Of a stretch of 32,837 nt of DNA, positions 135 through 6,644 are shown piece by piece. Made by a program: the position numbers and the translations under genes. The stretch lies in contig NZ_BIXY01000085.1 in NCBI RefSeq assembly GCF_008326305.1, positions 1 to 32,837 on the forward strand, written 5' to 3'. The notes beneath the pieces are model-generated. The model was given only the letters and a program-made list of their open reading frames with translations, had not been told where the DNA came from and did no database searches. The stretch is from Dictyobacter arantiisoli. GTDB lineage: Bacteria; Chloroflexota; Ktedonobacteria; Ktedonobacterales; Ktedonobacteraceae. The first letter of the stretch is position 1; each line of letters begins with the position of its first letter.

Positions 135-151
135 CTAGTCCTACAGTTGTA
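135..151 (-). promoter_or_regulatory. BlaI/CopY-like operator; left copy of 17-bp inverted repeat
   Basis: These 17 bases are the exact reverse complement of 6710-6726. The inner ten bases (142-151) fit TACANNTGTA, the operator core known for BlaI/MecI/CopY-type repressors. The repeat overlaps the stop codon of the histidine kinase (141-143). Read leftward, a weak -10-like CACTAT follows. It may be an operator for a gene beyond the left edge or one end of a mobile module. No repressor gene is in the window. Confidence 0.45.
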
Positions 152-1385
152 AATAAAGAGCATCTTTTCTTCCGCCCTCGTCAGAGTCAGAACCGTCCAC
201 CAGCGGCAACCAGATTTCGAAGCAGGAGCCGCGTCCCACGGTGCTGCGGAGACGAATTTCGCCCTGATGAACTTGCGCCACCCACTGCACGATTGCCAGG
301 CCCAGTCCACTTCCACTCGTTATTTCTTTCTGGATGCCTTCTTCCTCCACTGGGAGAGATGCATGTGAACGTGCTGCATCTACACGATAAAAGCGCTCAA
401 AGAGATAGCTCTGATGTTCCTCAGCGATTCCTGGCCCATTATCCTCTATCCATATCCGGCCCCATGCTTTTTCTCCTCGCATCGCAGTGCTCCCTTCGAC
501 AAAGACGCGGTTACCGATCCCAGAGGTATATTTGAGCGCGTTATCAATCAAATTGGTCACCATCAAGGTCAGAAGCAGACGATCTCCATGTACGCACAGT
601 TCAGGAAATTCCCCAAAACTCAGATCTATGCCTCGTTGGCGAGCCAGGGTCGCAAATCGTTCCACCACCTCGAGGGTCACTTCACTCATATCCACCGAGG
701 CCGGGGTGAGAATGGTTTGCTCGATGTCGGCTCGCGCGAGGAGCAACAGGTCGTTGACCAGACGGGTCATGTGATCTGTCTCGGCTTGAATCAGGGAGAA
801 CTCCTGTCGGTACGCTGCGATTGTGTCGAGCGCCTGTTTATAGGTTTCTGGCTTGCTCCCCCCAGACAAGGCTCGGTTTGTCGCGAGCGTGAGAATACTG
901 AGTGGGGTCCGTAACTCATGGCTCGCATCGGCGGTAAACTGGCGTTGGCGGCTCAAGACGGCTTCTAAGCGATTGAGCATTTCATCGAAGGTGCCTGCCA
1001 ATTCGCCCAATTCGTCGCGACTGGTGAGATGGAAGCGCCGACTGAGGTCCGTCCGCCCAATCTCCTGAGCCGTGCGGGTAATCAGCCGGACTGGACGCAT
1101 GGCTCTGCTCGCTAGCCAATAACTACTGGCAGCAGTGAACAGCAGGATCGCCAGACCCAGCAAGAAAATTTGTCGCGCGATTGGCAGAAGGTCACCAGGA
1201 GCAGATGATGGCAGCATCTTGGCGATGGTGCTATACAATAACCCCCCAAAAAGCAAGAGAACAGATGTGATTGTCACGATGTACCAGAGCGTCAGTCGGA
1301 TACGTATACTGCTCAGATGGAAATACATTTGTTGCCAGAGCGTTTGATTGTGACGCTCTGGTTGTTTCCTATGACGGTCGCGCAT
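141..1385 (-). CDS. Sensor histidine kinase (HisKA/HATPase_c, HAMP), two TM helices
   Basis: Membrane-bound sensor kinase of 414 residues that should autophosphorylate on a His and pass the phosphate to the regulator encoded just upstream. TM helices lie at about 29-51 and 69-91 with only about 17 residues outside the membrane, so there is no sizeable sensor domain. A HAMP region follows at about 90-145. The H-box SHELRTPL carries His156. The N-box NLIDNALKY starts near 278, G1 is DNGPGI (315-320) and G2 is GSGLGLAI (358-365). All catalytic boxes are intact. ATG start, preceded by GAGGAG seven bases upstream; only 22 bases separate it from the regulator stop, so they form one transcript. The very short external loop is typical of kinases that sense the membrane or a partner transporter, which suits the nearby ABC genes. 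The stop codon lies inside the 17-bp inverted repeat. Confidence 0.93.
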   Translation of the reverse strand: MRDRHRKQPERHNQTLWQQMYFHLSSIRIRLTLWYIVTITSVLLLFGGLLYSTIAKMLPSSAPGDLLPIARQIFLLGLAILLFTAASSYWLASRAMRPVRLITRTAQEIGRTDLSRRFHLTSRDELGELAGTFDEMLNRLEAVLSRQRQFTADASHELRTPLSILTLATNRALSGGSKPETYKQALDTIAAYRQEFSLIQAETDHMTRLVNDLLLLARADIEQTILTPASVDMSEVTLEVVERFATLARQRGIDLSFGEFPELCVHGDRLLLTLMVTNLIDNALKYTSGIGNRVFVEGSTAMRGEKAWGRIWIEDNGPGIAEEHQSYLFERFYRVDAARSHASLPVEEEGIQKEITSGSGLGLAIVQWVAQVHQGEIRLRSTVGRGSCFEIWLPLVDGSDSDEGGRKDALYLQL

Positions 1386-1407: not shown

Positions 1408-2082
1408 TCACTCTGGTGGATGCAAGCGATAGCCTACACCACGCACCGTCTCGAGCAATTTAATAGGAAACGCTTCATCAACCTGGCAGCGGAGACGGCG
1501 CATGCAGACCTCAACGGCATTCAAGGTCCCAGTGAATTCATAGTTCCAGATATGGTTCGCAATCATTTCGCGCGTCAGCACCTGGTTGGGATGGCGCATC
1601 AAATATTCGAGCAGGGAAAAGAGCCGTGGCGTGAGCTCGATGCGTTGCCCCGCTCGCTCAACCACATGGGTTGCGGGATCGAAACTCAGATCACCCACAC
1701 GCAGGACGGCACTTTTCTCCGCTCCATTGCGACGCAATAAAGCCCGGAGACGAGCCAGCAGTTCGCTCAGGGCAAAAGGTTTGACCAGGTAATCATCAGC
1801 ACCACTATCCAAACCACGCACACGATCGGCCACCGTATCGCGCGCGGTTAAGAGGAGAATCGGCGTATTGAAGTGTTGACGTCGAAGATCTCGACACACC
1901 TCCAGTCCGTCTTTGCCTGGCAACAAAATATCGAGGATGAGCACATCGTAGGAAGTAGACTCAGCCAATGCCTGCCCCTCCACGCCATCATACGCTGGAT
2001 CAACGGCATAGCCTTCGTCAACTAAGCTCATCTGAAGTTCATGATTCAACCGCCGATTATCTTCAACCAGAAGAATGCGCAT
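1408..2082 (-). CDS. OmpR/PhoB-family response regulator
   Basis: Cytoplasmic DNA-binding regulator of 224 residues, the normal length for the family. The receiver domain (1-115) has the acidic pocket ED (7-8), phospho-acceptor Asp51 in LILDILLPGKDG, Thr79 and Lys101 in LVKPF. The C-terminal winged helix (about 128-222) contains ELTPRLFSLLEYLM and ends in TVRGVGYRL, the typical wing. It is transcribed divergently from the DedA gene and precedes its kinase. Its own promoter carries the same TGTCAG direct repeat found before the DedA and ABC genes, so autoregulation is very likely. ATG start with a purine-rich GGAAAGGGAACGAGAG leader. Specific function of the pair is inferred from neighbours only. 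Confidence 0.95.
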   Translation of the reverse strand: MRILLVEDNRRLNHELQMSLVDEGYAVDPAYDGVEGQALAESTSYDVLILDILLPGKDGLEVCRDLRRQHFNTPILLLTARDTVADRVRGLDSGADDYLVKPFALSELLARLRALLRRNGAEKSAVLRVGDLSFDPATHVVERAGQRIELTPRLFSLLEYLMRHPNQVLTREMIANHIWNYEFTGTLNAVEVCMRRLRCQVDEAFPIKLLETVRGVGYRLHPPE

Positions 2083-2116
2083 CGCTCTCGTTCCCTTTCC
2101 TTTCTGTCTCTCCTCT

Positions 2117-2149
2117 ATTATCCCTCAAAAACCTGACACCGTGCTGACA
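2117..2149 (-). promoter_or_regulatory. Response-regulator box and promoter of the regulator-kinase operon
   Basis: Read on the - strand, TGTCAG (2149-2144), five bases, and a second TGTCAG (2138-2133) are followed after exactly 10 bases by GATAAT (2122-2117). An 11-base direct-repeat period just upstream of a -10 is the usual layout of OmpR/PhoB-type activated promoters; the PhoB box is a TGTCA direct repeat with the same period. The site is the near-perfect mirror image (one mismatch in 17) of the rightward site at 2165-2181. Confidence 0.65.
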
Positions 2150-2164
2150 AGAAGAGGGCAGAGA

Positions 2165-2197
2165 TGTCAGCATGGTGTCAGAAGAAACGAGTATGCT
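2165..2197 (+). promoter_or_regulatory. Response-regulator box and promoter for DedA gene
   Basis: TGTCAG at 2165-2170 and 2176-2181 (period 11), then 10 bases, then the -10 hexamer TATGCT (2192-2197). No good -35 is present apart from the box, as expected for an activator-dependent promoter. It shares a 54-base divergent control region with the regulator promoter. Confidence 0.65.
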
Positions 2198-2251
2198 CTC
2201 TCCGAATACATCAATGAGTAGTCAGGATCAGCAACTAGAAAGAGGTTTTCG

Positions 2252-2914
2252 ATGAATGGAATACAACTCACGCAGCTTCTCGCCACCTATGGCTATGGAG
2301 CAGTCTTGCTCTTTGTCACCATTGAGAGCACTGGCATCCCCTTTCCGGGCGAAACAATGCTCCTTATTGCTGCCATTGCCGCCGGAATGACGCATCAACT
2401 CGCCATTCCCTGGGTCATTACCGCCGCAGTCGGCGGTGCCATCCTGGGCGATAACCTGGGGTTCTGGATCGGACGTACAGCTGGTTACCGCTTACTCCGC
2501 CGCTATGGGCATTACATCCACCTTGATGAGCGCAAGCTCAAACTGGGCCATTACTTGTTTCTCAAGCATGGTGGCAAGGTTGTCTTTTTTGGACGCTTTG
2601 TGGCGGTCCTGCGCGCCTGGGCAGCCTTCCTGGCGGGAACGAACCGCATGAGCTGGCCCACCTTTTTGCTCTGCAATGCGAGCGGTGCCGTGGTATGGGC
2701 GAGTCTTGTGGGACTCTCAGGCTACTTCTTGGGAAATGTCATGCATCAGTTCAGTGGACCCATTGGAATCGCCACCACGGTAGGAGCGGGAATCGTCAGT
2801 TTTATCTGGTTCATTGTCTGGCATCATCAGAGCCGCCGCCTGGAGGGTGAGGCCGAACGAGCACTGCCTGGTTCCCTGGATGATTACCGCAAGGTGCTGA
2901 GAGGAGAGAAGTAG
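2252..2914 (+). CDS. DedA/VTT-family membrane protein
   Basis: Integral membrane protein of 220 residues in the DedA (SNARE-associated, VTT) family. Members are linked to undecaprenyl-phosphate or phospholipid flipping, membrane potential and resistance to cationic peptides. Family hallmarks visible are ESTGIPFPGE (25-34), the glycine-rich re-entrant segment GGAILGDNLGFWIGRTAGY (about 61-79), and FFGRFVAVLR followed by AFLAG (about 112-129). Hydrophobic helices lie near 12-35, 47-66, 137-160 and 172-192. The C-terminal tail is charged and cytosolic. ATG start preceded by AAAGAGG. It is expressed from the regulator-boxed promoter at 2165-2197, divergent from the two-component genes, so a role in envelope stress controlled by that system is a fair inference. 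Which lipid or ion it handles cannot be read from the sequence. Confidence 0.9.
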   Translation: MNGIQLTQLLATYGYGAVLLFVTIESTGIPFPGETMLLIAAIAAGMTHQLAIPWVITAAVGGAILGDNLGFWIGRTAGYRLLRRYGHYIHLDERKLKLGHYLFLKHGGKVVFFGRFVAVLRAWAAFLAGTNRMSWPTFLLCNASGAVVWASLVGLSGYFLGNVMHQFSGPIGIATTVGAGIVSFIWFIVWHHQSRRLEGEAERALPGSLDDYRKVLRGEK

Positions 2915-2945
2915 CGCTATCTCCGCAGCCAGGACAAAACACGTG

Positions 2946-2978
2946 TGTCAGCGTCTTGTCAGGAAACAGCAGTATACT
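2946..2978 (+). promoter_or_regulatory. Response-regulator box and promoter for the ABC transporter
   Basis: TGTCAG at 2946-2951 and 2957-2962 (period 11), then 10 bases, then -10 TATACT (2973-2978). The geometry is identical to the two sites at 2117-2197, and the following bases (GAAAC.GC/GAGTAT.CTCT) are also similar between the two rightward promoters. The transcript would begin near 2985, leaving a leader of about 130 bases before the ATPase gene. Confidence 0.65.
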
Positions 2979-3117
2979 CTTCCTCAGTCCAGTCCAACGA
3001 TCTTTCCGTTGGCACCAATTCCATACCTGGGCAAAAAACGGAGAGATGGAGCAAGATGGAAAATGGCATGATACATGAACTGGCCAGCATAAATGAAAAA
3101 GAAAGGCGAAAGATACC

Positions 3118-3864
3118 GTGAACGAACAACAAGAGAGGGGCATGTTCTCTGATCCGTACCTATCTCCTGACGTGATGGAGGTATCTTCCATCATGAAGCG
3201 TCTCTCCCTAGGACGTGAACAGATTGACATTCTCAAAGGCATCACCTTGACCGTGAAACGAGGAGAATTGCTGGCACTGGTCGGGCCATCTGGCTCTGGC
3301 AAAAGTACACTCCTTGGCATTCTTGCCGGGCTTGATACGCCGACAAGTGGACACATTGTGTTGGATGGCATTGATATTACGCGGATGTCTGAGGGCAAAT
3401 TAGCTGCGATACGCAATCGCAAGATCGGCATGGTTTTTCAAGCCTATAACCTGATTGCTACGCTGACCGCACAAGAAAATGTCGAGATCCCTCTGTATGT
3501 GGGAAAACATCCAGGCTTGCCCTCAGCTCGTGCCAGAGAGCTTCTGGACCTCGTCGGACTCTCACATCGCCTGGGGCACCGGCCCGCGCAGCTTTCCGGG
3601 GGCGAACAGCAACGCGTGGCGATTGCGCGAGCATTGGCGGCTGATCCAGCCCTGATCATTGCCGATGAGCCAACGGGAAACCTGGATGAGCAGAACGGCC
3701 AGAAGCTGCTCAAGCTGATCGCGGATCTGCGAGCGCAGACGGGAAAAACCTTTATTCTTGCCACACATGATGCGACCGTTGCCGCGCATGCCGATCGTGT
3801 CATACGGATGAGGGATGGCGTGATCGCAGGCATTCACGAGCAGAATGGAGCGCGCGTGCAATGA
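3118..3864 (+). CDS. ABC transporter ATPase, MacB/LolD type
   Basis: ATP-binding subunit of 248 residues that should power the FtsX-type permease encoded next. Walker A is GPSGSGKS (56-63), Q-loop Gln108, signature LSGGEQ (159-164), Walker B LIIADEP with Glu184, and switch His217. The PTGNLD stretch after Walker B is typical of the MacB/LolD/FtsE group. The GTG start at 3118 gives about 20 extra residues before the family-typical [10 protein letters not shown]; an ATG at 3175 or 3193 (the latter 11 bases after GGAGG) is a possible shorter start. The stop overlaps the permease start (ATGA), so the two are translationally coupled. Expression is probably driven from the boxed promoter at 2946-2978. 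Confidence 0.95.
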
Positions 3865-6644
3865 AAGCAGCTCTTTTTGTCACCTATCCGTTGCGCTCGT
3901 TGCGGCGCGGCGGCGGCTCCACGCGGCTGGCGATTCTCTGTATCGCGATCGGAGTCATGGCAGTTGTAGCGATTCAGTCAATTGGACTGATGGCGACCAA
4001 CTCCTATGTAAACAACGCCCGTACGGCCAATGGAGGCGACATTTCCGTGCGGACGGCGAACCACAATATGCCTTTTATCCCAGGCAACTTCACGTCCTTC
4101 GCGCAACTCAAAAACGAACAATTGATTCAGGACTATACTCCAGTCAACCTGGAACAGGGCACCATCGGTACTCAGTCCGCGCCAGCGAATGGGCTTCTGG
4201 TGCAGGTTGTCGATCCAGCGCATTTTCCCCTGGTAGCCAGGCCCACTTTCGTCTCGCCTGCCTCGGGATCACTGAAAACACTTTTGACAGCCAATCAGGT
4301 AGTAGTCACGCAGACCTTTCTCACACACTACCACATGCAACTCGGCGATACATTTGACCTGCAGATCCAATCAGCGCAGCAGAGCGCGGCGGCGCGGACG
4401 CTTCATGCGCGCATAGCCGGTGTGATCGCCAATACTGGCATGTACCCCGCAGGCAATACATTTGTGCTGACCTCGTTTGCCGCGTACCAGGCGGCCAATC
4501 CAACGTTGCCCGTGACCTATGAAAGTGTCGATATCACCACGCAAGATCAGGCTCATACGAATGAGACACTGCGCGTACTCCAGCAGCAAGTTCAGCAAGG
4601 ACATTTGCCACCTGCCTCTTTCCAAACGGTGGCCGAGGTGCAACAGCATGTGCAGTCTTTCACCAACTCGGAGACGCAATCGCAGCAACTGGCAGGTCTG
4701 CTCGCCCTCTTTATCGCTGGTCTGGGCATTATGAATACCATGCGCGTGTTACTTGCCCGGCGCACACTAGAGATTGCAATGCTCAAGACGGTGGGCTATA
4801 GCCGGATCAGTCTCGCGCTCCTCTTTGGGATAGAAACGGGCGTGTTGGGCTTGCTCGGCGGCATACTTGGAACCGGGATATCGGTGGGTATCAGCTATGG
4901 AGTAGTAACCAGATTGCTCTTGGTGCCATTTCAACTTGACCCGTTGACGCTTGGTGGTGGTCTTGCCCTGGGCGCATTCACGGCGCTCAGCTTTGGGCTG
5001 GTGCCCATTGTCCAGTCCGCGCATATCCGCCCCATTACGGTTCTGCGCGAAGGCTCAAACAGCGATTCGGCCAGCAACCGTAGCCTGACGTTTGCGCTGT
5101 ACAGCCTGGTGGTCCTCCTGTTTTGTCTGCTGGCGAGCATTCTTTTGCAGAACCTGTTGCTGGCCTGTGCGGGCGTCTGCGGAGCAGTCTTGTTCCTCGC
5201 ACTCCTGAGCCTGGGCATTCGCCCACTCATCTGGGGCGTCAGTGCTTTTCCCATCCTGGAACAGTATAGCATGAAGTACCTGACAGGCATGTTCGCTGGC
5301 ATAGTATGCGCGGCGCTACTCTGTGTGTTCTTCCCGCTCATAGGAGGCGTAGTTCTGGCTCTCTTCTGCCTCGCATTGGGAATGAAGGTGTTGCCTCAGA
5401 GCTGGAAGATCAACACCAAAATGGCTTTACGCAATCTCGGAAGAAGGCCCATGCGTACAACCATGCTGGTTCTGATCCTGTTTGTGGGGGTCTTTGTGAT
5501 TGGCAGTCTTCAAGCTATGAATCAAGGTCTGCAAAGCCAGCTCGCCACCACGATGAATCAAAGGCTTTCCTACAATGTGATCGTCAAACTTCCGCGCAAT
5601 CAGGCACAAGCGATACAAGCACAACTGACCACGCTGCCAGGTCTGCTGACCTCTTCCTCCACAACAGTTGCGGCCACATCCCCTGTAACGATCAATGGCC
5701 AGTCCTGGCAACACTTTTTTCCGCTCACCCAACTCAATCAGCAGGCTGTGGTGCAGCGCAACTTCGATGGCGTTGAGGGTTATGATCTCGCCAATCAGCA
5801 CAGCCCTGATCCACGCTTCATTCATATCGTCACCGGGCGAACCTTGAATACGAGCGACGCCGGGACCAATCATGTGCTCATTCCCTATACTCTCCCGCAG
5901 GCCAACACCTTCTCCCTGAGCATTGGGGACACGCTGACTGTGACGAGCGCGGAGGGCAGGACTAGTCCCACCTTAACCGTCGTTGGAGAATACACCACAG
6001 CGGACATCTCGCTGACGCAGGTATCGCCCATTTTGACCCCGGAGTCGGTCGTAACAACGCTGGCCCCGACCACGGCGCAAACCGTCTTCTACTTGAAGGT
6101 CGATCCAGCGCAGGTAGCACAAACGGAAACAACGCTTGATAATGCACTGCCCGGTATTACCTTTGTGCCAACGCCAGCCAGCGGCATTGACAGTTACCTT
6201 CAAGGACTATCCAGCATTGTCTGGATCTTCACAGTGATTGCCAGCTTCGTGCTTCTGACTGGTATGCTCATCATGGCGAACATGGTCGTGCTGGACTTAT
6301 TCGAGCGCCGCCGGGAACTGGGGATTTTGAAAGCCCTTGGCTATTCCCAGCAGATGCTATGGGGGGAAATGCTGTTTGAGTACGGCATCATCGGGGGCAT
6401 CAGTGCGACCCTGGCCATCGTACTGATAGCCCTGCTCGCCAATCTCTTCGGCAATCTTTTCTTGCGCGCAACAACCAGTGAGTTGAGTCACATAGGCGCG
6501 CCGGTCGTCTTGAGCTTTGCACCCAATGGATGGCTGCTTACCAGTCTGGTCGTAGGCACAATCCTGCTGGTGACGGTTACCTCCTTGCTCGCTTCCTGGC
6601 GCACGGTACACGTACGCCCTCTTGACGTCTTGCGCTATGAATAG
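3861..6644 (+). CDS. Double-FtsX ABC transporter permease, 927 residues
   Basis: Membrane subunit of the transporter. It has two MacB/FtsX units in tandem: TM helix at about 22-44, an extracellular domain to about 275, and a first FtsX core (about 280-400) ending IRPITVLREG. A cluster of four or so extra helices (about 408-510) follows. The second unit has a TM near 535, an extracellular domain (about 560-780) and a second FtsX core ending VRPLDVLRYE. This layout matches long LolCE/MacB-like permeases of Gram-positive-type and monoderm bacteria, which act in lipoprotein handling, peptide or drug export, or mechanotransmission rather than classical import. The start codon overlaps the ATPase stop by four bases. 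No outer-membrane or adaptor (MacA) partner is nearby. Substrate is unknown; kinase, DedA and transporter together suggest response to membrane-active compounds. Confidence 0.92.
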   Translation: MKAALFVTYPLRSLRRGGGSTRLAILCIAIGVMAVVAIQSIGLMATNSYVNNARTANGGDISVRTANHNMPFIPGNFTSFAQLKNEQLIQDYTPVNLEQGTIGTQSAPANGLLVQVVDPAHFPLVARPTFVSPASGSLKTLLTANQVVVTQTFLTHYHMQLGDTFDLQIQSAQQSAAARTLHARIAGVIANTGMYPAGNTFVLTSFAAYQAANPTLPVTYESVDITTQDQAHTNETLRVLQQQVQQGHLPPASFQTVAEVQQHVQSFTNSETQSQQLAGLLALFIAGLGIMNTMRVLLARRTLEIAMLKTVGYSRISLALLFGIETGVLGLLGGILGTGISVGISYGVVTRLLLVPFQLDPLTLGGGLALGAFTALSFGLVPIVQSAHIRPITVLREGSNSDSASNRSLTFALYSLVVLLFCLLASILLQNLLLACAGVCGAVLFLALLSLGIRPLIWGVSAFPILEQYSMKYLTGMFAGIVCAALLCVFFPLIGGVVLALFCLALGMKVLPQSWKINTKMALRNLGRRPMRTTMLVLILFVGVFVIGSLQAMNQGLQSQLATTMNQRLSYNVIVKLPRNQAQAIQAQLTTLPGLLTSSSTTVAATSPVTINGQSWQHFFPLTQLNQQAVVQRNFDGVEGYDLANQHSPDPRFIHIVTGRTLNTSDAGTNHVLIPYTLPQANTFSLSIGDTLTVTSAEGRTSPTLTVVGEYTTADISLTQVSPILTPESVVTTLAPTTAQTVFYLKVDPAQVAQTETTLDNALPGITFVPTPASGIDSYLQGLSSIVWIFTVIASFVLLTGMLIMANMVVLDLFERRRELGILKALGYSQQMLWGEMLFEYGIIGGISATLAIVLIALLANLFGNLFLRATTSELSHIGAPVVLSFAPNGWLLTSLVVGTILLVTVTSLLASWRTVHVRPLDVLRYE

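Follow-up and report, generated by a model that had tools for sequence, protein, structure and literature searches.

If three neighbouring promoters share one direct-repeat box, which regulator owns that box, and how would it act upon the three? The case is raised by the window, a stretch of 32,837 nucleotides that makes up all of contig C85 of the 7.2-Mb assembly of Dictyobacter arantiisoli. A pattern scan of the window finds exact matches to TGTCAG-N5-TGTCAG at 2149–2133 on the minus strand (box 1, TGTCAGCACGGTGTCAG) and, on the plus strand, at 2165–2181 (box 2, TGTCAGCATGGTGTCAG) and 2946–2962 (box 3, TGTCAGCGTCTTGTCAG). They lie 5′ of a response regulator–histidine kinase operon, a DedA gene and an ABC transporter operon, at 50, 70 and 155 bp, respectively, from the start codons adopted here. 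At all three, exactly 10 bases (N10) separate the second hexamer from a −10 element: GATAAT for the regulator–kinase promoter (2117–2122, minus strand), TATGCT for the DedA promoter (2192–2197, plus strand) and TATACT for the ABC promoter (2973–2978, plus strand), matching TATAAT at five, four and five of six positions. Boxes 1 and 2 face apart with 15 bp between them and differ at one position in 17. In each of these respects, the placing of the boxes, the spacing and hexamers, and the mirror symmetry of the first pair, the earlier note on this DNA was accurate. A promoter search of positions 2000–3200 found no sigma-70 promoter with a −35 element; at spacings of 15–19 from the three −10 elements, the best hexamer matches TTGACA at no more than three of six positions.

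What do these promoters serve? Box 1 precedes the gene of an OmpR/PhoB-family response regulator, the predicted owner of the boxes (1408–2082, minus strand), composed of a receiver and a winged helix (Pfam Response_reg, PF00072, 94.6 bits, and Trans_reg_C, PF00486, 87.9 bits, both above cut-off). Its partner in the operon is a histidine kinase of 414 residues (141–1385, minus strand; Pfam HAMP, HisKA and HATPase_c) with orthologues at 74–78% in genomes G022 and G041. Hydropathy places two transmembrane segments before the HAMP domain, at about residues 31–54 and 66–93, with some 11–18 residues between them; two such helices and a predicted extracytoplasmic loop of fewer than about 25 residues are the layout of an intramembrane-sensing kinase. 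The intact kinases of the nearest relatives (G041, G022, and G002 at 3.92 Mb) come close to it in length, at 403–418 residues, and those beside the other regulators at least 60% identical to that of the window mostly have 487 or more. Box 2 precedes a DedA-family membrane protein of 220 residues (2252–2914, plus strand; Pfam VTT_dom, 60.6 bits, cut-off 33.9). Box 3 precedes an ATPase of the LolD/MacB type (3118–3864, plus strand; Pfam ABC_tran; best NCBIfam model LolD, 238.7 bits, under its cut-off of 307.75) and a MacB-like permease of 927 residues (3861–6644, plus strand; Pfam MacB_PCD and two FtsX matches). Downstream of the kinase gene, at the contig end, positions 1–51 form a perfect 23-bp inverted repeat, TATTGTGTAGTGCAGGAAAGGTG-CTGTG-CACCTTTCCTGCACTACACAATA, which looks like a repeat element or a strong terminator where the assembly broke.

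Might the three boxes be chance matches, or duplicated repeats devoid of regulatory meaning? Isolated copies do arise. A whole-genome scan returned four exact matches on both strands of the 7.2-Mb assembly, and the fourth, on contig C71, has no promoter context; it has no −10 element at N10 either, and for that reason we take it as probably due to chance. The other three, however, all fall in the window, within 830 bp and each with a correctly placed −10 element, where base composition predicts 0.86 exact matches in the entire genome. A given kilobase would contain three by chance with a probability of about 3e-13, and a reversed control pattern gave no match in the assembly. The boxes are, moreover, conserved in orthologous promoters across genera. 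The probability that they lack regulatory meaning is, in our estimate, close to negligible.

How far does this conservation extend? In the genomes of the class we scored a regulator gene as having its own box if TGTCA-N6-TGTCA occurred on the coding strand within 400 bp upstream with at most one mismatch, and used ACTGT-N6-ACTGT as control. Such a box precedes 28 of the 31 regulator genes at least 60% identical to that of the window; the control precedes none of the same 31. Regulators of the same class at 47–51% identity have no box of their own (0/14), and distant ones rarely do (3/90); on these counts we reject the idea that TGTCA boxes are widespread among OmpR-type regulators. (The outgroup regulators, at 44–53% identity among the matches listed, serve as outgroup only.) The spacing is equally constrained: 26 of the 31 boxes have a −10 element at N10 that matches TATAAT at four or more positions, and each other spacing from 4 to 16 accounts for no more than three. 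Across 47 genomes of the class, TGTCA-N6-TGTCA-N12-ANNNT occurs at 63 sites, against six for the reversed control. Judged by these sequence comparisons, the box follows the CopR-like regulator subfamily wherever it occurs.

Are the targets conserved along with the box? In G041 the gene order is that of the window and all three boxes are present, box 2 with one mismatch and box 3 as TGTCAACGTCTTGTCAG; the DedA reading frame is interrupted. Box 1, the predicted autoregulatory site of the regulator–kinase operon, is kept in G041, G022 and G002. G022 retains the mirrored pair with 15 bp between, and there the divergent gene encodes a different membrane protein, for which no Pfam match was found; the target set is therefore not fixed between relatives. 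G002 has kept the mirrored pair in a rearranged locus (C1, 3.92 Mb), whose right-hand box precedes a methyltransferase gene and a DedA gene 29% identical to that of the window, followed by remains of the ABC genes and by a kinase gene. Also in G002 (C1, 4.88 Mb), a second box is followed after 79 bp by the ATG of a DedA frame that is truncated; over 53 residues its product has 83% identity to the DedA protein at 3.92 Mb. These genes differ from the DedA gene of the window yet share its box type, and hence two types of DedA lie behind the same box. By eye, a frame resembling an IS66-type transposase (L077:6823-7611 in G002) occupies the place of the regulator, with both mirrored boxes remaining; this locus is apparently a decayed copy of the module.

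In the four divergent promoter regions that could be aligned, the hexamer and −10 bases are invariant at 34 of 36 positions, and other bases at 34 of 116. Elsewhere in the class, neither the DedA homologues (60–70%) nor the ABC homologues (near 40%) were found to have a promoter box, and the boxes are thus ruled out as a general property of DedA or MacB-like genes. The earlier note had predicted that the adjacent kinase–regulator pair directly controls both the DedA protein and the MacB-like transporter. The boxes survive comparison of orthologous loci, which it had named as a check, and their type tracks the phylogeny of the regulators, as set out below; these parts of the prediction stand. 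Among the relatives compared, however, the full DedA and ABC set with all its boxes occurs only in the window and in G041, and binding and activation we infer.

If the box follows the regulator, can regulators of one genome be told apart by their boxes? At the sixth position of the half-site G is found before the window regulator, before its three close relatives and that of G015, and before one of those of G041 (AGTCAG); the remainder of the 31 mostly have T. When 36 regulators are placed on a tree, a branch with support of 95/92 separates the six G-type rows from all others. Both types coexist in G002 and in the window genome itself, where a paralogous regulator on contig C34, 63% identical to that of the window, is of the T type. 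This paralogue might bind the boxes of the window, instead of or besides the adjacent regulator, the two then sharing a regulon. Its own divergent promoters are of the same architecture, with TGTCAT-N5-TGTCAT and TTTCAT-N5-TGTCAT, and some cross-binding is therefore plausible. Yet the sixth base, T rather than G, tracks the regulator clade across 31 regulators, and the paralogue has divergent MacB-type ABC genes of its own. We consider ownership of the boxes by the paralogue, sole or shared, unlikely, and return to the adjacent regulator as their owner.

Three alignment columns of the regulators, 15, 175 and 187, separate the G and T groups completely. Residue 187 is leucine or proline in the G clade and serine in all others, and directly precedes the asparagine aligned with Asn212 of Mycobacterium tuberculosis PhoP, a residue in contact with bases where the recognition helix begins (PMC4832192). 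The change to G has a single origin on the tree; it is therefore one event and not repeated co-variation, and as such supports the pairing of box with regulator but does not prove the role of residue 187.

Several further copies of the box were seen in the relatives. In several with T-type boxes, a second perfect TGTCAT box coincides with the 3′ end of the kinase gene or follows it closely, pointing back into the gene (L076:9608-9623, L079:9370-9385, L083:6298-6313, L089:3699-3714 and L248:4933-4948), mostly with no −10 element at N10. Upstream of the regulator at L113 (G046:C72) four TGTCAT hexamers follow in a row with an 11-bp period (TGTCATCCGCGTGTCATCCTGGTGTCATCCCCATGTCAT), which suggests a longer operator able to accommodate more than one dimer. 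Away from any regulator, L247:6965-6980 (G041:C8:1432964) is a perfect T-type box whose −10 element at N10 is GATAAT; the gene that follows has, by eye, the look of a PIG-L-type deacetylase and is a possible distant member of a sister regulon. The site TGTCACAGATCTGTCACGGGAAATAAGTACTTT at L250:6153-6168 in G041, between genes that by eye are glnA-like and moaA-like, is identical in G041, G020 and G023. Finally, six tandem TGTCAG hexamers with an 11-bp period (units of TGTCAGGGCCA) at G024:C1:5067834-5067894 form a satellite-like array whose repeats mimic the box.

What kind of operator is this? OmpR/PhoB-family regulators bind direct repeats as tandem dimers (PMC4832192). The PHO box consists of two 11-nt units, with CTGTCAT as the E. 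coli motif (PMC4415409); it is this geometry that the boxes match, bearing out the earlier reading of their 11-base period as that of OmpR/PhoB-type activators. The regulator of the window has direct-repeat half-sites with an 11-bp period beside its own promoter, as expected of a tandem operator. Might the boxes then be Pho boxes, bound by a phosphate regulator of the PhoB/PhoP type, with the three units belonging to a Pho regulon? Both the TGTCA half-site and the 11-nt repeat unit equal those of the E. coli pho box (PMC4832192; PMC4415409). In its form CTGTCAT-N4-CTGTCAT, that box too is a head-to-tail tandem around a TGTCA core which replaces the −35 element. The N10 spacing to the −10 element also resembles that of the E. 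coli pho box at phoA. On the other hand, this genome has a pst operon with a PhoB-like regulator gene of its own at the end, and there pstS is preceded by TTAACA-N5-TTAACA, with no TGTCA box. Since the pst operon uses TTAACA repeats, the TGTCAG box is not the Pho box of this genome, and we reject the Pho-regulon reading. The window regulator scores 194.6 bits against TIGR02154, the PhoB model, far under the cut-off of 296.2; its targets, unlike those of E. coli PhoB, are its own operon, a DedA gene and an exporter; and the box tracks the CopR-like subfamily. We hold a Pho assignment to be very improbable. The TTAACA repeat itself (L243:6981-6997, G000:C40) has the spacing of the TGTCAG boxes and is the probable Pho box of the window organism.

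By score the closest family is that of CopR/CusR (TIGR01387), at 254.8 bits, below the cut-off of 279.2. The likeness extends to the half-site TTGTCAT, identical in most relatives, to a regulator gene divergent from an export operon and to autoregulation, which is predicted for the window regulator. However, the site of E. coli CusR is a palindrome, AAAATGACAAnnTTGTCATTTT (PMC11195947), and the boxes of the window are tandem. The CusR-type palindrome TGACAAnnTTGTCA does not occur in the regulator–DedA intergenic region, which holds tandem repeats with their inner, inverted half-sites 15 bp apart. The kinase differs as well in having no periplasmic sensor domain, and no metal genes were identified beside the window regulator. 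Membership of the heavy-metal CopR/CusR group is rejected on score, site form and kinase layout. With TTGTCAT in most relatives, TTGTCAG at box 1 and a tandem layout, the boxes thus join a CusR-type half-site with a PhoB-type arrangement. M. tuberculosis PhoP, the second-best solved relative of the window regulator, recognizes TCACAGC-N4-TCACAGC (PMC4832192). The two share the OmpR/PhoB fold, direct repeats in an 11-bp register, the tandem dimer (predicted for the window regulator) and the conserved asparagine and glutamate positions of the recognition helix; they differ in the hexamer and in reach, PhoP being global and the window regulator local.

How would the adjacent regulator act? We consider it likely, with good confidence that covers the regulatory mechanism alone and not the physiological role discussed below, that the three boxes are its operators and that it activates its own operon, the DedA gene and the ABC operon. 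The neighbouring short-loop kinase, a pairing assumed from adjacency, would phosphorylate the regulator. Two molecules of the phosphorylated form, arranged head to tail as a dimer, would occupy each box, one on each TGTCAG in the 11-bp period, and would recruit RNA polymerase to the −10 element placed 10 bp downstream, substituting for the absent −35 element in a class II, PhoB-like geometry. Activation of the regulator–kinase operon by its own product would constitute positive feedback; the divergent DedA gene and the downstream ABC operon would be activated in the same way.

Could the boxes instead repress, with the regulator blocking all three promoters until phosphorylation or a ligand relieves the block? 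Their position over the −35 region could allow a bound protein to keep polymerase out, and back-to-back boxes are common in repressed divergent promoters. There is, however, no −35 element to block, and the fixed N10 distance to the −10 element is the spacing of PhoB-type sites that recruit polymerase. Repression appears to us quite unlikely; from the geometry of box and −10 element we infer activation.

What might such a circuit be for? A tentative answer, by analogy, is a cell-envelope stress response, in which the DedA protein may handle a lipid carrier, for instance undecaprenyl phosphate, and the MacB-like exporter may remove an antimicrobial compound or lipid. Three considerations point this way. 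DedA proteins are undecaprenyl-phosphate flippases linked to peptide-antibiotic resistance (PMC12893004, PMC11474028); the protein of the window shares with DedA/UptA flippases the VTT-domain membrane architecture of a family tied to resistance to envelope antibiotics, although its score against the UptA model NF052604, 60.8 bits, is well under the cut-off of 250. Resistance modules are known in which a short-loop kinase accompanies an ABC transporter (PMC3023708, PMC10314905), and the window resembles the Bce type (BceRS–BceAB) in its short-loop kinase, adjacent regulator and co-encoded transporter. It departs from that type in its MacB-like permease, in the inclusion of a DedA gene and in a transporter that has no known sensing role. 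Lastly, divergent ABC genes are frequent next to the sister regulators in the loci of relatives.

The locus is an example of a well-known kind of local control. Literature searches found no published binding site for this regulator subfamily and nothing relevant on this regulator group in these bacteria. As a rather speculative possibility, a paralogous two-component family may have multiplied in the class, each pair driving its own operon and often a divergent ABC gene. All would use one operator plan of TGTCA direct repeats, N10 and a −10 element, and regulons may be separated by the last base of the half-site (G or T) in combination with substitutions where the recognition helix begins (serine to leucine or proline at residue 187). 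The clade of the window would then be a previously undescribed envelope-stress module of short-loop kinase, DedA lipid-carrier protein and MacB-like exporter. The analysis assigns a candidate operator to a regulator subfamily in bacteria for which there are few experimental data on regulation. The pair of box types, with the residues that accompany them, offers a concrete test of how paralogous OmpR/PhoB-type regulators stay separate. And by linking a DedA protein to a dedicated sensor and exporter, the locus suggests the class of stress to test.
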